DNA of 64,000 nt, taken from the NCBI RefSeq assembly GCF_041053105.1, contig NZ_CP163444.1, forward strand, positions 4,402,001-4,466,000, written 5' to 3'. Positions 55,532 to 64,000 of the stretch are shown piece after piece. This DNA comes from Streptomyces sp. R44 (GTDB lineage: Bacteria > Actinomycetota > Actinomycetes > Streptomycetales > Streptomycetaceae). Numbering within the stretch: position 1 is the stretch's first letter; each line of letters begins with the position of its first letter. The position numbers were made by a program, and so were the translations under genes. The notes below the pieces were generated by a model. The model made no database searches. It worked only from the letters and a program-made list of their open reading frames with translations, and was not told where the DNA came from.

Positions 55532-55837
55532 ATGGCAAGCATCCGTACCGCCCGCATCCTCGCCGCCGCCGCCGCCCTGCCCCTCGCCGCCGCGCTCTTC
55601 ACCGGGGTGGCCCAGGCCGACAACGGAGGTTTCGCGGACGACGGATCGAACACGAGCGTCGCCACGATCATCGGCAGCGGCGTGGGCGGGGCCAACCTCG
55701 GCAACTCGACCACGACGCAGCAGGTCGCGACCGGTTCCGGTGCCTCCAACCAGAACAACACCGCGAGCGTGAACGGCTCCGCCTTCACGCACATCGACCA
55801 GGACAACAACGTGGTGAACTTCCACCCGTGGTGGTGA
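55532..55837 (+). CDS. Small secreted Asn/Thr/Ser-rich protein
   Basis: This 101-residue protein has a clear Sec signal peptide (ARILAAAAALPLAAALFTGVAQA, cleavage near residue 29). The 72-residue mature part is rich in Asn, Ser, Thr and Gly (GANLGNSTTTQQVATGSG, then SNQNNTASVNGSAF). It has no Cys and ends HPWW. The composition recalls small aerial-hypha surface proteins such as rodlins or short chaplins, but the diagnostic motifs of those families are absent. ATG 55532 has a perfect GGAGGA site. The long leader suggests regulated expression. Confidence 0.75.
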   Translation: MASIRTARILAAAAALPLAAALFTGVAQADNGGFADDGSNTSVATIIGSGVGGANLGNSTTTQQVATGSGASNQNNTASVNGSAFTHIDQDNNVVNFHPWW

Positions 55838-55977: not shown

Positions 55978-56011
55978 TTGACAGGCGCACGGAATCTGAC
56001 GGACAGTCAGA
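55978..56011 (+). promoter_or_regulatory. Promoter and overlapping operator of the igr-like operon
   Basis: A consensus -35 TTGACA is at 55978-55983; a -10-like GACAGT lies 18 bases on, at 56002-56007. The perfect inverted repeat TCTGACGGACAGTCAGA (55995-56011; 6-bp arms, 5-base centre) covers the presumed -10. The arrangement fits repression by a TetR-type regulator of acyl-CoA catabolism. Confidence 0.6.
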
Positions 56012-56043: not shown

Positions 56044-57210
56044 GTGCACCTCGCCCCGACCGAGCGGCAGCTGCGGCTGCGCGCCGAACTCCGCGCGTAC
56101 TTCAGGGACCTGATGCCCGACGGCCCACCGCCCGCCACCGACACGGCCGCCCAGCGGCGGCTGCTGCGCCGGATCGGCGCCGACGGGCTGCTCGGTCTCG
56201 GCTGGCCCGAGGAGTACGGAGGGCAGGGCCGCGGCCCCGACGAGCAGTTCGTCTTCTTCGACGAGGCGTACCGCGCCGGCGCCCCCGTCTCGATGGTCAC
56301 CCTCAACACCGTCGGACCCACGCTCATGGCGTACGGGACCGAGGAGCAGAAGGCCTTCTTCCTGCCCCGGATCCTGCGCGGCGAGGCCGTCTTCGCCATC
56401 GGCTACAGCGAGCCCGAGGCCGGGACCGACCTCGCCTCCCTGCGCACCCGGGCCGTGCGCGACGGGGACTCCTGGCGCATCGACGGGCAGAAGATCTTCA
56501 CCTCGAACGCCCAGAACGCCGACTGGATCTGGCTCGCCTGCCGCACCGACCCCGACGCGGCCCCGCACCGCGGCATCTCCATCGTCCTCGTCCCCACCGA
56601 CTCCCCCGGCTTCTCCTGGACCCCGATCGAGACGGTGGGCGGGCTGACGACGACCGCCACGTACTACGACGGGATACGGGTCCCCGCCGGCAACCTCGTC
56701 GGGCCCGAGCACGGCGGCTGGGGCCTCATCACCAGCCAGCTCAACCACGAACGGGTCGCGCTGGCCGCGATCGGCATGCAGGCCGAGGACTTCTTCGCGG
56801 CCGTCCTCGACCGGGCGCGTACCCCCGATCCGGTGACGGGCAGGCGTCGCATCGACGAGCCGTGGATCCGGATCCGGGCCGCCGAAGCGCATGCCCGGCT
56901 GGCCGCGACACGCCTTCTGAACTGGCGCCTGGTCGGTGACGTGGGGGCCGGCCGGCTGGCCCCGGGGGACGCGAGCGGCGTGAAGTTCGCGGGCACCGAA
57001 TCGGCGGTGGAGGTGTACCGCATCTGTCAGGAGATCGCGGGCGGGCCGGGAACGGTGCGAGCGGGATCGCCGGGGGAGTTCGACGGCGGTGAGCTGGAGC
57101 GCATGAACCGGGCCGCGCAGATCAACACCTTCGGGGGAGGAGTGAGCGAGGTGCAGCGCGAGATCGTCGCGAGGATGCGGCTCGGCATGAAGGCGAGGGG
57201 CAGGCGATGA
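56044..57210 (+). CDS. Acyl-CoA dehydrogenase, ChsE2/FadE29-like
   Basis: This 388-residue flavoprotein resembles M. tuberculosis FadE29 (ChsE2) along its length: LTPEQ-like start TERQLRLRAELRAYFRDLMP, LGWPEEYGGQGRGPDEQ, FAIGYSEPEAGTDLASLRTRAVRDGD, KIFTSNAQNADWIWLACRTDP, LITSQLNHERVAL and NTFGGGVSEVQREI. ChsE2 forms a heterotetramer with ChsE1 and contributes FAD contacts and the catalytic base, probably the Glu of NHER here. The pair desaturates a three-carbon steroid side-chain CoA ester. GTG 56044 has GGAGG 8 bases upstream. It is the first gene of five coupled genes. Confidence 0.9.
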   Translation: MHLAPTERQLRLRAELRAYFRDLMPDGPPPATDTAAQRRLLRRIGADGLLGLGWPEEYGGQGRGPDEQFVFFDEAYRAGAPVSMVTLNTVGPTLMAYGTEEQKAFFLPRILRGEAVFAIGYSEPEAGTDLASLRTRAVRDGDSWRIDGQKIFTSNAQNADWIWLACRTDPDAAPHRGISIVLVPTDSPGFSWTPIETVGGLTTTATYYDGIRVPAGNLVGPEHGGWGLITSQLNHERVALAAIGMQAEDFFAAVLDRARTPDPVTGRRRIDEPWIRIRAAEAHARLAATRLLNWRLVGDVGAGRLAPGDASGVKFAGTESAVEVYRICQEIAGGPGTVRAGSPGEFDGGELERMNRAAQINTFGGGVSEVQREIVARMRLGMKARGRR

Positions 57211-58139
57211 GCGGTACGGAGCGGACGGCGGAGGACGCGCTGTACGAGCGCCTCGCCGCGTACGAGGGCCGGCCCGCCGCCGTCGGGGGCACCGGGAAGG
57301 ACCCGGTCAACCTGCCCATGATCAGGCACTGGTGCGAGGCGATGGGGGACACCCACCCCGCCTACGCGGGGCCGGACGCCGTCGCGCCCCCCACCATGCT
57401 CCAGGCGTGGACGATGGGCGGACTCTCCGGGCACACGGACCGGTCGGCGGCGTACGAGGAGCTGTTCGCCCTCCTCGACGGCGCCGGATACACCTCGGTC
57501 GTCGCGACCGACTGCGAGCAGGAGTACCTGCGGCCGCTCCGCCCGGGCGAGGAGATCGGCTTCGACACCGTCATCGAGTCCGTGTCGGCGCGCAAGACCA
57601 CGAAGCTCGGCACCGGGTACTTCGTGACGACGCGGACGGACGTCCGCGCGGACGGCGAACTCGCGGGCACCCACCGCTTCCGCATCCTCAAGTACGCGCC
57701 CGCCGGCCGGCCGTCCCGGGAGCCGCGGAAGCCCCCGGCCCGGCGGCCCAGGCCCGTGGTCAACCGGGACAACGCCGGCTTCTGGGAGGGCGTGGCCGCG
57801 CACCGGCTGCTGATCCAGCGCTGCGGCGACTGCGCGAGCCTGCGCCTCCCCTGGCTGCCCGGGTGCGCCGACTGCGGCTCGCGGGAGTGGGACACGGTCG
57901 AGGCGAGCGGGGCCGGGACGGTCTTCTCGTACGTGGTGATGCACCACCCGTCCTTCCCGGCTTTCGATCCCCCTTACGCAGTGGGACTGATCGAACTCGC
58001 CGAGGGCGTACGCATGATCAGCAACGTGGTGGGCGTGCCGTACGACAAGGTGCGGATCGGAATGCCGGTGCGGCTCGAGTTCCAGCGGGTCGACGAGGAG
58101 CTGGAGCTTCCCGTCTTCCGCGCGGGAGGGGAGGACTGA
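57207..58139 (+). CDS. ChsH2-like protein: MaoC-type hydratase plus DUF35 OB-fold
   Basis: This 310-residue fusion has an N-terminal hot-dog domain (about 20-170, VNLPMIRHWCEAMGDTHPAY and VAPPTMLQAWTMGGLSG). The C-terminal DUF35 has a zinc ribbon CGDCAS...CADCG followed by an OB fold (GTVFSYVVMHHPSFPAF). This exact domain order is that of M. tuberculosis Rv3542c (ChsH2): the hot-dog half pairs with ChsH1 for enoyl-CoA hydration, and the DUF35 half pairs with Ltp2 for the aldol cleavage. ATG 57207 overlaps the upstream stop (ATGA). Confidence 0.9.
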   Translation: MSGTERTAEDALYERLAAYEGRPAAVGGTGKDPVNLPMIRHWCEAMGDTHPAYAGPDAVAPPTMLQAWTMGGLSGHTDRSAAYEELFALLDGAGYTSVVATDCEQEYLRPLRPGEEIGFDTVIESVSARKTTKLGTGYFVTTRTDVRADGELAGTHRFRILKYAPAGRPSREPRKPPARRPRPVVNRDNAGFWEGVAAHRLLIQRCGDCASLRLPWLPGCADCGSREWDTVEASGAGTVFSYVVMHHPSFPAFDPPYAVGLIELAEGVRMISNVVGVPYDKVRIGMPVRLEFQRVDEELELPVFRAGGED

Positions 58140-58140
58140 C

Positions 58141-59169
58141 ATGGACTTCACCCCCACCGAGGAGCAGGAGGCCGCCCGGGAGCTCGCCGGGCGGATCTTC
58201 GCCGACCTCGCGACCCACGAGCGGCTCCGGGCAGCCGGTACCGGCACGGACGCCGAGCTCTGGAAGGCGCTCTGCGCGGCCGGACTCCCCGGCGCCGTCG
58301 AGGAGACCGGCCTGCTCGGCCTGGTCCTCCTCCTGGAGGAGCAGGGCCGCAGGACGGCGCAGGTGCCGTTCGCCGCGAGCTGTGCGTACGGGATCCTCGC
58401 CGTCGGCCGGCACGGTACGGAGGAGCAGCGCGCCCGGCTCCTGCCCGGCCTCCGCGACGGGACGACGGTGATGACGGGGGCGCTCCCGGCACCGGGCACG
58501 GTCACGTCGGGTCCAGGGGGACTGAGCGGCGTCGTCGACTGGGTGCCGTGGCTCAGGGACGCCACCCACGTCCTCGTACCGGACGAGGACCGCGCCCTGT
58601 GGCTGGTCCGCGCCGAGGACGCGGCCGCCGTCGAGGCCGTCGAGCTCACCGCGCCCTGGGCCGCCGCCCGGCTCGTCCTCGACGGGACACCGGGGGAGCG
58701 GCTCGGCGGCACCGGGGCCCACGACGACGTGCTCGCCGCCGCGCGGACCGCCTTCGCCGGGCTCCAGGTCGGAGTGTGCGCCGGGTCCCTCGCGAGGGCC
58801 GTGGAGTACACCTCCGTACGGGAGCAGTTCGGGCGGCCGCTCTCGACCCACCAGGCGGTGCAACTGCGGGCCGCCGACGCCCATATGGACACCGAGGCCA
58901 TCCGGGTCACCGCCTACGAGGCCGCCTGGCGCTTCGACGAGGGGCTCGACGCCACCGGGGCGGCGCTCACCGCGGCCTGGTGGGCCTCCGAGGCGGGCAA
59001 GCGGGTCGTGCACGCCGGACAGCATCTGCACGGCGGGATGGGCGCGGACCTCGACCACCCCGTCCACCGGCACTTCCTGTGGGGCCGGCAGCTCGACGCC
59101 TACCTGGGCTGCGGCACCGAACTCCTCGCCGAACTCGGCGACCTGCTCGCGGAGGGGGACCTGTCATGA
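58141..59169 (+). CDS. Acyl-CoA dehydrogenase, ChsE1/FadE28-like
   Basis: This 342-residue acyl-CoA dehydrogenase-like subunit resembles M. tuberculosis FadE28 (ChsE1): MDFTPTEEQEAARELAG start, GLLGLVLLLEEQGRRTAQVPFAAS, a shortened middle domain, VREQFGRPLSTHQAVQLRAADAHMDTEAIR and HLHGGMGADLDHPVHRHF. In the heterotetramer this subunit lacks a functional catalytic base and completes the FAD site. It begins one base after the ChsH2-like gene and overlaps the next. Confidence 0.9.
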   Translation: MDFTPTEEQEAARELAGRIFADLATHERLRAAGTGTDAELWKALCAAGLPGAVEETGLLGLVLLLEEQGRRTAQVPFAASCAYGILAVGRHGTEEQRARLLPGLRDGTTVMTGALPAPGTVTSGPGGLSGVVDWVPWLRDATHVLVPDEDRALWLVRAEDAAAVEAVELTAPWAAARLVLDGTPGERLGGTGAHDDVLAAARTAFAGLQVGVCAGSLARAVEYTSVREQFGRPLSTHQAVQLRAADAHMDTEAIRVTAYEAAWRFDEGLDATGAALTAAWWASEAGKRVVHAGQHLHGGMGADLDHPVHRHFLWGRQLDAYLGCGTELLAELGDLLAEGDLS

Positions 59170-59558
59170 GCCCGGTGAAGCCCGGTGACGCACTGCCGCC
59201 GCTGCGGATCCCGATCACCCGCACCCTGATCGTCGCCGGGGCCCTCGCCTCACGCGACTACCAGGACGTGCACCACGACGCCGAGCTGGCCCGCGAGAAG
59301 GGCTCTCCGGACATCTTCATGAACATCCTCACGACCAACGGGCTCGTCGGCCGGTACGTCACCGACCACTTCGGTCCCCGGTCCGTCCTCCGCGGAGTCG
59401 CCATCCGCCTCGGCGCCCCCAACCACCCCGGAGACACCATGGTCCTGACCGGGACCGTCACCGAGGTGGACGGGGACACGGCGCGCGTCCGGGTCGTCGG
59501 CGCCAACGGGCTCGGACACCACGTCACCGGCACGGTCACCGTGGAGGTGACCCGATGA
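59166..59558 (+). CDS. ChsH1-like MaoC-type enoyl-CoA hydratase subunit
   Basis: This 130-residue single hot-dog protein carries the hydratase motif SRDYQDVHHDAELA, with the Asp and His expected to activate water as in ChsH1. The hydrophobic core segment is NILTTNGLVGRYVTDHFGP. It should form the hydratase with the hot-dog half of the ChsH2-like protein. Both flanks overlap (ATGA at 59166 and 59555), so stoichiometric synthesis with its partners is likely. Confidence 0.9.
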   Translation: MSPVKPGDALPPLRIPITRTLIVAGALASRDYQDVHHDAELAREKGSPDIFMNILTTNGLVGRYVTDHFGPRSVLRGVAIRLGAPNHPGDTMVLTGTVTEVDGDTARVRVVGANGLGHHVTGTVTVEVTR

Positions 59559-60721
59559 GCGTCCGCGGCAGGGACACGCTCGGCGGGCGGGCCGCCGTCG
59601 TCGGCATCGGGGCGACCGAGTTCTCCAAGGACTCGGGCCGCAGCGAACTCTCCCTCGCCGTCGAGGCCGTGCGCGCGGCCCTCGACGACGCCGGGCTCAC
59701 CCCCGCCGACGTCGACGGCCTGGTCACCTTCACCATGGACACCAACCCCGAGATCACCGTCGCCCAGGCGTCCGGCATCGGCGAGCTGTCCTTCTTCTCC
59801 CGCGTCCACTACGGAGGCGGCGCCGCCTGCGCCACCGTGCAGCAGGCCGCGCTCGCCGTCGCCGCCGGGGTCGCCGAGGTCGTCGTCTGCTACCGGGCGT
59901 TCAACGAGCGCTCGGGGCGCCGCTTCGGCTCCGGGGTCACGCAGCGCGAGCCCTCCGCCGAGGGCGCCGCGCTCGGCTGGCAGCTGCCCTTCGGGCTGCT
60001 CACCCCGGCCTCCTGGGTCGCCATGGCCGCCCAGCGGTACCTGCACACCTACGGGCTGACCCCGGACGCCTTCGGGCACGTGGCGGTGACGGACCGGCGG
60101 TACGCGGCGACCAACCCCGCCGCGTACTTCCACGGGAAGCCGATCACCCTCGCCGACCACGCCGCCTCGCGCTGGATCGTCGAGCCGCTCCGGCTCCTCG
60201 ACTGCTGCCAGGAGACCGACGGCGGCCAGGCGATCGTCGTCACCTCCGTCGAGCGCGCCCGCGACCTGCCGCGCCCGCCCGCCGTGATCCTCGCCGCGGC
60301 CCAGGGCGCCGGCCGGAAACAGGAGGCCATGACCAGCTTCTACCGGGACGAGCTGACCGGGCTGCCGGAGATGGGGGTGGTGGCCCGGCAGCTCTGGCGG
60401 ACGTCCGGGCTCGCGCCCTCCGACATCGACGTGGGCATCCTCTACGACCACTTCACCCCGTTCGTGCTGATGCAGCTGGAGGAGTTCGGCTTCTGCGGGC
60501 CGGGGGAGGCCGCCGACTTCGTCGCGGCCGACGCGCTCCCGCTGAACACCCACGGGGGGCAGCTCGGCGAGGCCTACCTCCACGGGATGAACGGGATAGC
60601 GGAGGCGGTGCGGCAGATCCGCGGCACCTCGGTGAACCAGACACCCGGCGCGGCCCGGACCCTGGTCACGGCGGGCACGGGGGTTCCCACGTCCGGGTTG
60701 ATCCTGGGCACGGACGGCTGA
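59555..60721 (+). CDS. Ltp2-like retro-aldolase (thiolase-fold lipid-transfer protein)
   Basis: This 388-residue thiolase-superfamily protein is of the SCP-x/Ltp2 subgroup: AAVVGIGATEFSKDSGRSEL, YGGGAACATVQQAALAVAAGVAEVVVCYRAFNERSGRR, GILYDHFTPFVLMQLEEFGFC and NTHGGQLGEAYLHGMNGIAEAVRQ. Ltp2 uses tyrosines rather than cysteines to cleave the hydroxylated side chain, releasing propionyl-CoA. Candidate tyrosines here are in ILYDHF and EAYLHG. It needs the DUF35 half of the ChsH2 partner. It is the last gene of the operon. Confidence 0.9.
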   Translation: MSVRGRDTLGGRAAVVGIGATEFSKDSGRSELSLAVEAVRAALDDAGLTPADVDGLVTFTMDTNPEITVAQASGIGELSFFSRVHYGGGAACATVQQAALAVAAGVAEVVVCYRAFNERSGRRFGSGVTQREPSAEGAALGWQLPFGLLTPASWVAMAAQRYLHTYGLTPDAFGHVAVTDRRYAATNPAAYFHGKPITLADHAASRWIVEPLRLLDCCQETDGGQAIVVTSVERARDLPRPPAVILAAAQGAGRKQEAMTSFYRDELTGLPEMGVVARQLWRTSGLAPSDIDVGILYDHFTPFVLMQLEEFGFCGPGEAADFVAADALPLNTHGGQLGEAYLHGMNGIAEAVRQIRGTSVNQTPGAARTLVTAGTGVPTSGLILGTDG

Positions 60722-62085: not shown

Positions 62086-62631
62086 ATGACTCCGCCACCC
62101 TCTGGCCCCGTCTGCGCCGGTGCCTCGCAGTACGCGTCGTACCCGACCTTCACCTCGTACGTGCGGGCGCGTGGACCCGTGCTCCTGCGCACCGCGCGCT
62201 CCCTCACCGCCAACCCCTCGGACGCGGAGGACCTCCTCCAGACCGCGCTCGCCAAGACCTTCATGGCCTGGGAGCGCATCGAGGACCACCGCGCCCTGGA
62301 CGGCTACGTCCGCCGCGCGCTGCTGAACACCCGTACGTCGCAGTGGCGCAAGCGCAAGGTCGACGAGTTCGCCTGCGAGGAGCTGCCCGAGCCCGCCGGT
62401 CTCCCGGAGCCGGACCCGGCCGAGCGGCAGGTGCTGCACGACGCGATGTGGCGCGCGATCCTGAAGCTGCCGGAGCGGCAGCGCCAGATGGTGGTCCTGC
62501 GGTACTACGAGGACCTCAGCGAGGCCCAGACGGCCGAGGTGCTCGGGGTGTCGGTCGGCACGGTCAAGAGCGCGGTGTCCCGGGCGCTCGGCAAGCTCCG
62601 CGAGGACCCGGAGCTGACGCCCGTACGGTAG
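62086..62631 (+). CDS. SigE-family ECF RNA polymerase sigma factor
   Basis: This 181-residue sigma-70 factor contains only regions 2 and 4. Region 2 covers FTSYVRARGPVLLRTARSLTANPSDAEDLLQTALAKTFMAWERI; region 4 covers LPERQRQMVVLRYYEDLSEAQTAEVLGVSVGTVKSAVSRALGKLRE with its helix-turn-helix. The acidic linker (ELPEPAGLPEPDP) is common in the SigE-like group. No anti-sigma gene is adjacent. The start ATG follows a short spacer after the DUF1906 gene; an alternative downstream start is unlikely because region 2 begins soon after. Confidence 0.92.
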   Translation: MTPPPSGPVCAGASQYASYPTFTSYVRARGPVLLRTARSLTANPSDAEDLLQTALAKTFMAWERIEDHRALDGYVRRALLNTRTSQWRKRKVDEFACEELPEPAGLPEPDPAERQVLHDAMWRAILKLPERQRQMVVLRYYEDLSEAQTAEVLGVSVGTVKSAVSRALGKLREDPELTPVR

Positions 62632-62769: not shown

Positions 62770-64000
62770 GTGTACAGCACCATGCAGGACGTACAACTGA
62801 CCGTGAGCCGCATCCTCCAGCACGGGATGACCATCCACGGAAAGTCCACCATCACCACCTGGACGGGCGAGCCCGAGCCGCAGCGCCGCACGTTCGCGGA
62901 GGCCGGAACACGCGCGCACCAGCTGGCCCACGCCCTGCGCGACGAACTCGGGGTCACCGGCGACGAGCGCGTCGCCACCCTCATGTGGAACAACTCGGAG
63001 CACGTCGAGGCCTACTTCGCGATCCCCTCCATGGGCGCGGTCCTCCACACGCTCAACCTCCGCCTGCCCCCCGAGCAGCTGGTGTGGATCGTCAACCACG
63101 CCGCCGACCGGGTCGTGCTCGTCAACGGCTCGCTGCTCCCCCTCCTCGCCCCGCTGCTCCCGCACCTGCCGACGGTCGAGCACGTCGTCGTCGCGGGCCC
63201 GGGCGACCGCTCCCTCCTCGACGGCGCCGCCCCGCGCGTCCACGAGTACGAGGAGCTGATCGCCGGCCGCCCGACCTCGTACGACTGGCCCGAGCTCGAC
63301 GAGCGCACGGCCGCCGCCATGTGCTACACCTCCGGCACCACCGGAGACCCGAAGGGCGTCGTCTACTCGCACCGCTCGATCTACCTGCACTCCATGCAGG
63401 TGAACATGACCGAGTCGATGGGCCTCACCGACAAGGACACGACCCTGGTCGTCGTCCCGCAGTTCCACGTCAACGCCTGGGGCCTGCCGCACGCCACCTT
63501 CATGACCGGCATCAACATGCTCATGCCGGACCGTTTCCTCCAGCCGGCCCCGCTCGCCGACATGATCGAGCGCGAGAGGCCGACCCACGCGGCCGCCGTC
63601 CCCACCATCTGGCAGGGCCTGCTCGCCGAGGTCACCGCGAACCCCCGCGACCTCTCCTCGATGACCCAGGTCACCATCGGCGGCGCCGCCTGTCCGCCCT
63701 CCCTCATGGAGGCGTACGACCGGCTCGGCGTCCGCCTCTGCCACGCCTGGGGCATGACCGAGACCTCCCCGCTCGGCACGATGGCCCACCCGCCGCACGG
63801 CCTCACCCCGGAGGAGGAGTGGCCGTACCGGGTCACGCAGGGCCGCTTCCCCGCCGGTGTCGAGGCGCGCCTCGTCGGCCCCGGCGGCGAACGCCTCCCC
63901 TGGGACGGCGAGTCGGCGGGCGAGCTGGAGGTGCGCGGCACCTGGATCGCGGGCGCGTACTACAACGGCGTCGACGGCGAACCGCTCCGCCCCGAGGACA
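62770..64000 (+). CDS. Long-chain acyl-CoA ligase (FadD type), 5' part
   Basis: The frame is open from GTG 62770, preceded by GGGAGGA, to the end of the window (410 codons), so the gene continues beyond 64000. It is an ANL-superfamily adenylate-forming enzyme. The P-loop AMP motif is MCYTSGTTGDPKGVVYSH, and downstream are VPQFHVNAWGLPHATFMTG, TIGGAACPPSLMEAYDRLG and HAWGMTETSPLG. The C-terminal domain is missing. It activates a carboxylic acid, fatty or sterol-derived, to its CoA ester, and may supply the igr-like module 2 kb upstream; that link is inference. Confidence 0.93.
   Translation, partial: MYSTMQDVQLTVSRILQHGMTIHGKSTITTWTGEPEPQRRTFAEAGTRAHQLAHALRDELGVTGDERVATLMWNNSEHVEAYFAIPSMGAVLHTLNLRLPPEQLVWIVNHAADRVVLVNGSLLPLLAPLLPHLPTVEHVVVAGPGDRSLLDGAAPRVHEYEELIAGRPTSYDWPELDERTAAAMCYTSGTTGDPKGVVYSHRSIYLHSMQVNMTESMGLTDKDTTLVVVPQFHVNAWGLPHATFMTGINMLMPDRFLQPAPLADMIERERPTHAAAVPTIWQGLLAEVTANPRDLSSMTQVTIGGAACPPSLMEAYDRLGVRLCHAWGMTETSPLGTMAHPPHGLTPEEEWPYRVTQGRFPAGVEARLVGPGGERLPWDGESAGELEVRGTWIAGAYYNGVDGEPLRPED

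Follow-up and report, generated by a model that had tools for sequence, protein, structure and literature searches.

What does a complete set of genes for the last step of steroid side-chain removal do in a Streptomyces chromosome? The question is raised by a stretch of 64,000 nucleotides from Streptomyces sp. R44 (contig NZ_CP163444.1, positions 4,402,001 to 4,466,000; the whole stretch is called the window), in which an earlier note, made from the sequence alone, had recognised five genes as an igr-like module and had offered two explanations, a dispersed pathway or a substrate other than a steroid. Gene identity, residues, gene order, the Ltp2 clade, a shared operator, a ring-degradation cluster and the distribution across the genus were established by computation. 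We consider it likely that the module acts last in a sterol side-chain gene set that is dispersed but governed by one operator, with substrate and regulator being what we infer; the sterol side-chain pathway is the best reading for this strain because of the list of parts and the operator they share. The module genes, in window positions, are:

56044..57210, + strand, ChsE2-type (casL-type) acyl-CoA dehydrogenase subunit (Pfam; 416 bits to 6wy8_B)
57207..58139, + strand, chsH2-type (casM-type) gene: non-catalytic hot-dog half, C4 zinc ribbon and OB/DUF35 part
58141..59169, + strand, ChsE1-type (casN-type) acyl-CoA dehydrogenase subunit (Pfam; 218 bits to 6wy8_A)
59166..59558, + strand, ChsH1-type (casO-type) catalytic MaoC hydratase (Pfam; RDYQDVHHD motif)
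59555..60721, + strand, ltp2-type (casP-type) predicted retro-aldolase (NF005892; YDHF and GEAYLHG tyrosines)

Sequence comparison confirmed that the five genes encode ChsE2, ChsH2, ChsE1, ChsH1 and Ltp2 with their diagnostic residues, as the earlier note had proposed. Pfam domains occur in the order acyl-CoA dehydrogenase (ACAD); hot-dog, zf-ChsH2 and OB_ChsH2_C; ACAD; MaoC; and thiolase C-terminal. In a sequence search the closest solved structures were steroid enzymes for all five proteins, namely Tcur3483 (6wy8_B, 416 bits) for ChsE2, 6ok1_B (152 bits) for the DUF35 part of ChsH2, Tcur3481 (6wy8_A, 218 bits) for ChsE1, 4wnb/4w78 (4wnb_B, 114 bits) for ChsH1 and Thermomonospora curvata 6ok1_A (574 bits) for Ltp2, and on this ground the reading as unrelated fatty acyl-CoA enzymes was rejected. 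The proposed fusion of hot-dog and DUF35 parts was also found, with a FAS1_DH (hot-dog) region, zf-ChsH2 and OB_ChsH2_C (80.7 bits) in a single ChsH2 protein. The description of the genes as overlapping holds for three of the four junctions, which overlap by 4 bases, but ChsH2 and ChsE1 are separated by a 1-base gap. The start codon of chsE2 is GTG with GGGAGG upstream, and a GTGCAC start is also found in the loci of other species. ChsE1 and ChsE2 are two distinct subunits, nearest to chains A and B of 6wy8, and are predicted to form a heteromer; ChsE2 retains the NHER glutamate, whose role here is presumed, and the NTFGGGV glycine, the residue that differs between 6wy8 and 6wy9. The physical complexes proposed in the earlier note, ChsE1-ChsE2 and ChsH1-ChsH2-Ltp2, would be consistent with these identities.

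Ltp2 proved to be of the tyrosine type, carrying YDHF and a second tyrosine in GEAYLHG and not YDCY or a catalytic Cys, with an NF005892 score of 667.6 (cut-off 469). This cut-off alone is not diagnostic, as it is also passed by a YDAF paralog at 3.7555 Mb (582). In the alignment, YDHF was found in 59/59 core Ltp2 copies and 87/87 other copies, and GEAY-HG in 59/59 and 84/87, respectively. Neither the tyrosines, the Ltp2 tree described below nor the nearest solved relatives of all five proteins gave any of the outcomes named in the earlier note as speaking against its assignment. According to PMC11321319 and PMC12329534, paired Tyr and YDHF distinguish Ltp2 from Sal, which carries YDCY, and the former gives an Asp/His dyad in ChsH1 and not in ChsH2 as defining hydratase features. 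Here the dyad motif RDYQDVHHD is found in ChsH1, and ChsH2 has GDTHPAY, with Tyr in place of His.

The evidence connecting the module to other genes lies directly upstream of it, where TTGACA is followed by ATCTGACGGACAGTCAGA ahead of chsE2:

55978..55983, + strand, TTGACA, a -35-like hexamer of a putative module promoter, assigned by position
55995..56011, + strand, palindromic operator TCTGACGGACAGTCAGA, TetR-type by look (sole match in the window, 0.12 expected)

The palindrome lies 32 bases before the module. Of 40 core loci, 36 have TTGACA or TTGACG within the 260 bases scanned ahead of the first module gene. Searching with the 18 bases of ATCTGACGGACAGTCAGA and allowing up to 3 changes, we detected the operator in 39/39 further core module loci, with or without chsE genes, in 1/20 empty sites, in 1/80 named loci and in 2/13 loci around a lone ChsE2 paralog; 20 loci drawn from other genomes, in steroid islands and ring clusters, gave no match. 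Across the whole R44 genome there were 26 matches, at 23 places, whereas the reversed pattern gave none; 18 of these places lie no more than 100 bases from a gene start, with one more by eye (L369).

Several of these places adjoin putative steroid genes. At 2.675 Mb the operator lies between CYP125 (509.6 bits to 2x5l, CYP124 being next at 326.6) and a divergent FadA5 (NF005889, 694 against a cut-off of 515; 4ubv, 514 bits), and elsewhere between an EchA19-like hydratase (PRK07799, 411 against 316; EchA19 model 365, below its 400) and a divergent acyl-CoA ligase. It is also found before a FadD3-family ligase (751, cut-off 657), before a double acyl-CoA dehydrogenase whose downstream neighbour is another Ltp, at a further Ltp (3.7668 Mb) and a zf-ChsH2 gene (1.5576 Mb), and at a ferredoxin reductase-like protein, a short-chain dehydrogenase/reductase, a luciferase-like monooxygenase and two amidohydrolases, while a more degenerate palindrome stands ahead of a double MaoC hydratase at 2.637 Mb. 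A TetR-type repressor probably binds the shared operator, and one candidate is the TetR_C_38 protein encoded at 3.7642 Mb. The FadD3-family ligase is divergent from the YDAF Ltp, with the operator between them and a free-standing DUF35 protein next (3753810-3757300); this Ltp and DUF35 protein are possibly a related lyase.

No ring-degrading gene had been visible in the window, and the earlier note had suggested searching the rest of the genome. There we found KshA, KstD, HsaA, HsaC and HsaD, the markers of aerobic steroid ring catabolism, in a cluster at 8.01-8.05 Mb, ~3.57 Mb from the module. KshA (PF19298, 298 bits) is present as a single copy at 8.029 Mb, HsaA scored 625.8 (cut-off 450) and HsaD 485.9 (cut-off 400). 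Whole-genome searches gave one match for KshA, two for HsaA and 24 for P450s, none of them inside the window, which was not scanned for every ring gene. The cluster further encodes a 4-hydroxy-2-oxovalerate aldolase, an enoyl-CoA hydratase (PRK07938) and a thiolase (PRK07801), the latter two over cut-off and presumably EchA20-like and FadA6-like, respectively; no HsaB or KshB was identified by a specific model in this genome. Two HsaA-type oxygenase genes are adjacent in the cluster (8033020-8035819; 539 and 625 bits, both over cut-off). With this cluster, and with CYP125 and FadA5 behind the operator, a dispersed pathway is the better supported of the two options for this strain; a different substrate is less supported here, but may apply in the many species that have the module without HsaA.

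Taken together, the pathway would start with CYP125 and end with the five-gene module. Its scattered genes, CYP125, FadA5, the EchA19-like hydratase, the double MaoC hydratase, the double acyl-CoA dehydrogenase, the ligases and other Ltp/DUF35 proteins, would be linked by one palindromic operator, the probable binding site of a TetR-type repressor. The module, as one operon, would take the three-carbon isopropionyl-CoA side chain off a steroid in three reactions: ChsE1-ChsE2 would desaturate the side chain, ChsH1-ChsH2 would hydrate the product to a tertiary alcohol, and Ltp2, bound to the ChsH2 DUF35 domain, would split off propionyl-CoA, leaving a 17-ketosteroid. In this strain the freed nucleus could then pass to the separate ring-degradation cluster, which lacks the operator; the flux between these parts, as well as the substrate and the repressor, we infer.

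The label igr-like fits the gene content of the module, but not its gene order or the placement of its Ltp2. Two main gene orders were found among the best 80 named loci kept from a larger scan. E1-E2-H2-H1-Ltp2 was present in all seven loci named Mycobacterium or Mycolicibacterium (L275, L280, L286, L287, L292, L295, L298) and, among others, in Rhodococcus L271 and L289. E2-H2-E1-H1-Ltp2 was present in the window, in eight Rhodococcus loci (L226, L229-L233, L245, L246), in six Actinomadura loci and in several Acidimicrobiales metagenome-assembled genomes (MAGs); R. hoagii AcN21-7 holds both orders. In a quick Ltp2 tree of 107 rows, supported by the Shimodaira-Hasegawa-like approximate likelihood ratio test (SH-aLRT) only and without bootstrap, the igr-order group (17 labelled rows plus L266, which has the same order) had support of 100. 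A cholate-type group of 47 rows, including T. curvata, eight Rhodococcus and the Streptomyces island copies, had support of 95, and a third group, with SH-aLRT 100, comprised the window and 19 core Streptomyces copies, with a stem 0.5 changes per column long. Furthermore, a loop of about six residues present in the 87 other Ltp2 sequences of the alignment is absent from 59/59 core copies, all of which share Q71, L168 and A203. By order, the module is therefore of the cholate operon type casLMNOP and not of the mycobacterial igr type, and by this tree its Ltp2 forms a Streptomyces clade of its own. One Rhodococcus record in the comparison (sp. IEGM 1379, L231) is classed as Cyanobacteriota in the origin table, and its Ltp2 sits among Rhodococcus.

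The module thus resembles several known systems in part. With the igr operon (Rv3540c-Rv3544c type) it shares the same five functions and a CYP125 in the genome, here behind the same operator as the module; it differs in gene order and in an Ltp2 outside the igr-order group. In mycobacteria CYP125 is next door to the igr operon, whereas here it lies 1.78 Mb from the module. A recent transfer from mycobacteria was rejected on the separate Ltp2 clade and the fixed site of the module. For Ltp2, the DUF35 part, ChsE1 and ChsE2 the best solved relatives come from T. curvata (Ltp2-ChsH2(DUF35), Tcur3481/Tcur3483), and YDHF, the paired Tyr and the ACAD glycine are kept in the window proteins, but the T. 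curvata Ltp2 groups with the cholate-type rows. PMC12502768 reports chsE1E2 as not found near ltp2 in T. curvata, yet 6wy8/6wy9 name Tcur3481 and Tcur3483, which are the closest to the ChsE1 and ChsE2 of the window. Sal-Shy of Proteobacteria, as described in PMC11321319 and PMC12329534, likewise combines a DUF35-docked steroid aldolase with a hydratase, but Sal has YDCY and Shy is a homomeric hydratase, unlike the YDHF and the ChsH1-ChsH2 pair of the Streptomyces module.

The closest likeness in order is to casLMNOP of the Rhodococcus jostii RHA1 cholate cluster, with the same five functions in the same sequence (PMC8399759), which raises the possibility of a module dedicated solely to a cholate-type (bile acid) pathway. 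T. curvata, source of the nearest solved enzymes for four of the five proteins, grew on cholate and not on cholesterol (PMC4810484). However, the core Ltp2 clade falls outside the cholate-type group, which holds the Streptomyces island copies and T. curvata, and the core module has its own operator and the loop deletion and stands alone, outside any bile-acid cluster. CYP125, which is needed for alkyl side chains, is under the same operator. The order itself also occurs in actinobacterial/Acidimicrobiales MAGs outside the cholate-type group (L257, L259-L262, L274, L285), hence it may be ancestral. We regard an exclusively cholate-type role as improbable. Membership of a steroid island was likewise rejected, because six other Streptomyces genomes hold a second, cholate-type copy without the operator, five beside HsaA. 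In these six (L138-L143) the second Ltp2 lies within 9 kb of HsaA in five cases, and five genomes also keep the core Ltp2, G195 being the exception.

All markers were surveyed in the same 295 Streptomyces genomes. Module-type Ltp2 was found in ~205 of these; 211 exceeded the NF005892 cut-off before correction, five of which (G036, G073, G180, G201, G224) had a best match no stronger than expected of the YDAF paralog, so that 206 remain, and G195 seems to have the island copy only. HsaA was over cut-off in 29 genomes, strong KshA (at least 260 bits) was detected in 29, of which 28 were HsaA genomes, and squalene-hopene cyclase (SHC) in 282. Module-type Ltp2 was present in 27/29 HsaA genomes (G195 via its island copy) versus ~179/266 others (Fisher 0.003), and the five-gene form, with ChsE2 as marker, in 26/29 versus 85/266 (Fisher 1.5e-9). 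These 111 five-gene genomes comprise 104 listed by a core ChsE2 of at least 73% identity and seven inferred from two matches; five of the seven were confirmed by reading (G294, G021, G087, G175, G194), the other two being G064 and G167. The core ChsE2 match of G224 (3902862-3903842), among the 104, contains two in-frame TGA codons, from either a damaged gene or a fault in the assembly. Among 147 genomes sampled across the order, copies of at least 80% identity were found only in the genus of the window; one other genus had copies at 65-68%, and a match at 1e-120 occurred in two of five genera.

An earlier survey found no steroid pathway in 55 of 57 Streptomyces genomes (PMC4810484); ours agrees in that few genomes have HsaA (29/295), but shows that the side-chain module is common. 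The 104 CYP125A members in 203 Streptomyces species reported in PMC7369989 fit a widespread side-chain pathway. A literature search on Streptomyces with an igr operon found none.

A module so often present without HsaA might act on an endogenous triterpenoid. The hopanoid side chain has the same geometry, a five-membered ring carbon bearing a methyl-branched acid, and the same three reactions would convert a hopanoid with its side chain shortened to a C22 acid into 22,29,30-trisnorhopan-21-one and propionyl-CoA. The association with SHC is striking, as module-type Ltp2 occurs in 0/13 SHC-less genomes (Fisher 9e-8), but it fails the independence test: SHC changed four times on a neighbour-gene tree that included 10 of the 13 SHC-less genomes, giving three independent pairs on supported branches, hence the association is not separable from descent. 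The operator is shared with CYP125 and FadA5, which are sterol side-chain enzymes, and no hopanoid-specific gene was recognised beside operator sites by eye, without a profile search aimed at such genes. A literature search on hopanoid side-chain degradation found next to nothing, and a hopanoid substrate appears unlikely to us.

The module occupies a fixed site, between two conserved neighbours:

55532..55837, + strand, small protein gene with the look of a secretion signal, conserved left neighbour and not part of the pathway (synteny)
62086..62631, + strand, extracytoplasmic function (ECF) sigma factor gene, conserved right neighbour (Pfam and synteny)

Of 40 core loci read, 18 were full five-gene modules and 22 were trios of chsH2-chsH1-ltp2. 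The first 19 loci, an unbiased set, gave 13 full and six trio loci, whereas a further 20 were picked for uncertain ChsE status; all 16 predicted trios that were read proved to be trios. Outside Streptomyces, trios were seen in Microbispora L228 and Nonomuraea L239, and the full/trio state changed at least six times on the Ltp2 tree. Among the 22 trios, L126 retains part of the ChsE2 C-terminus, evidence in favour of loss, and L137 possibly does too; the matches in L127, L305, L310 and L317 were discounted as probable chance. In 20 module-less genomes no module gene was found in the 16 kb around the site; both neighbours were present in 13, less than 500 bases apart in eight.

The module could also be a relic, a once-steroidal operon decaying without current function in most species: it is absent from 71/282 SHC-bearing genomes (cut-off count), with ChsE1/E2 missing in about half and the one remnant in L126. 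Ltp2, however, is 87-97% identical to that of the window across the other 58 core copies read, all 59 carry YDHF, and the operator is kept in 39/39 loci and the ChsH1 motif in 40/40, so that a relic is very improbable.

Several findings weigh against the sterol side-chain set proposed for R44. HsaC (380.7) and KstD (686) fall below their cut-offs (450 and 789), although these are still their best models, and the operator was found in none of six partly overlapping loci of the strain's own ring cluster. At least three of the 23 operator places are not in front of a called gene, several sites front genes without a known steroid role, and the palindrome may be shared by other, related repressors. 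The long stem of the core Ltp2 clade may indicate a shift in specificity. About half of the module-bearing genomes lack ChsE1 and ChsE2. HsaA is absent from ~179/206 module-bearing genomes, hence ring degradation is not the usual partner of the module, and the association of HsaA with the five-gene form comes down to two independent pairs on supported branches and is not separable from descent.

A broader proposal, which we put forward tentatively and hold to be somewhat doubtful, is a genus-wide, one-operator sterol side-chain regulon uncoupled from the rings, with which most species would clip side chains for acetyl- and propionyl-CoA and about half, having lost ChsE1-ChsE2, would run the hydratase-aldolase alone. 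The 17-ketosteroids would be released and the two CoA esters would serve as polyketide precursors; in trio species the hydratase-aldolase would act on a substrate into which other enzymes had introduced the double bond or hydroxyl group. Were the side-chain part a core trait of the genus, Streptomyces would contribute to sterol turnover in soil and might gain a propionyl-CoA supply for polyketides. The shared operator offers a handle on the whole gene set, and species without the dehydrogenase are a natural test of the hydratase-aldolase pair by itself.

A lone ChsE2-like acyl-CoA dehydrogenase gene at 846566-847729 (L158), 56% identical and widespread in the genus, might replace ChsE1-ChsE2 in trio species; as a second ChsE pair it was rejected, with no ChsE1 beside it in 12 genomes read. 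At the right end of the window an acyl-CoA ligase gene (62782-64000, running past the window end) keeps its place in most loci read and has no operator of its own.

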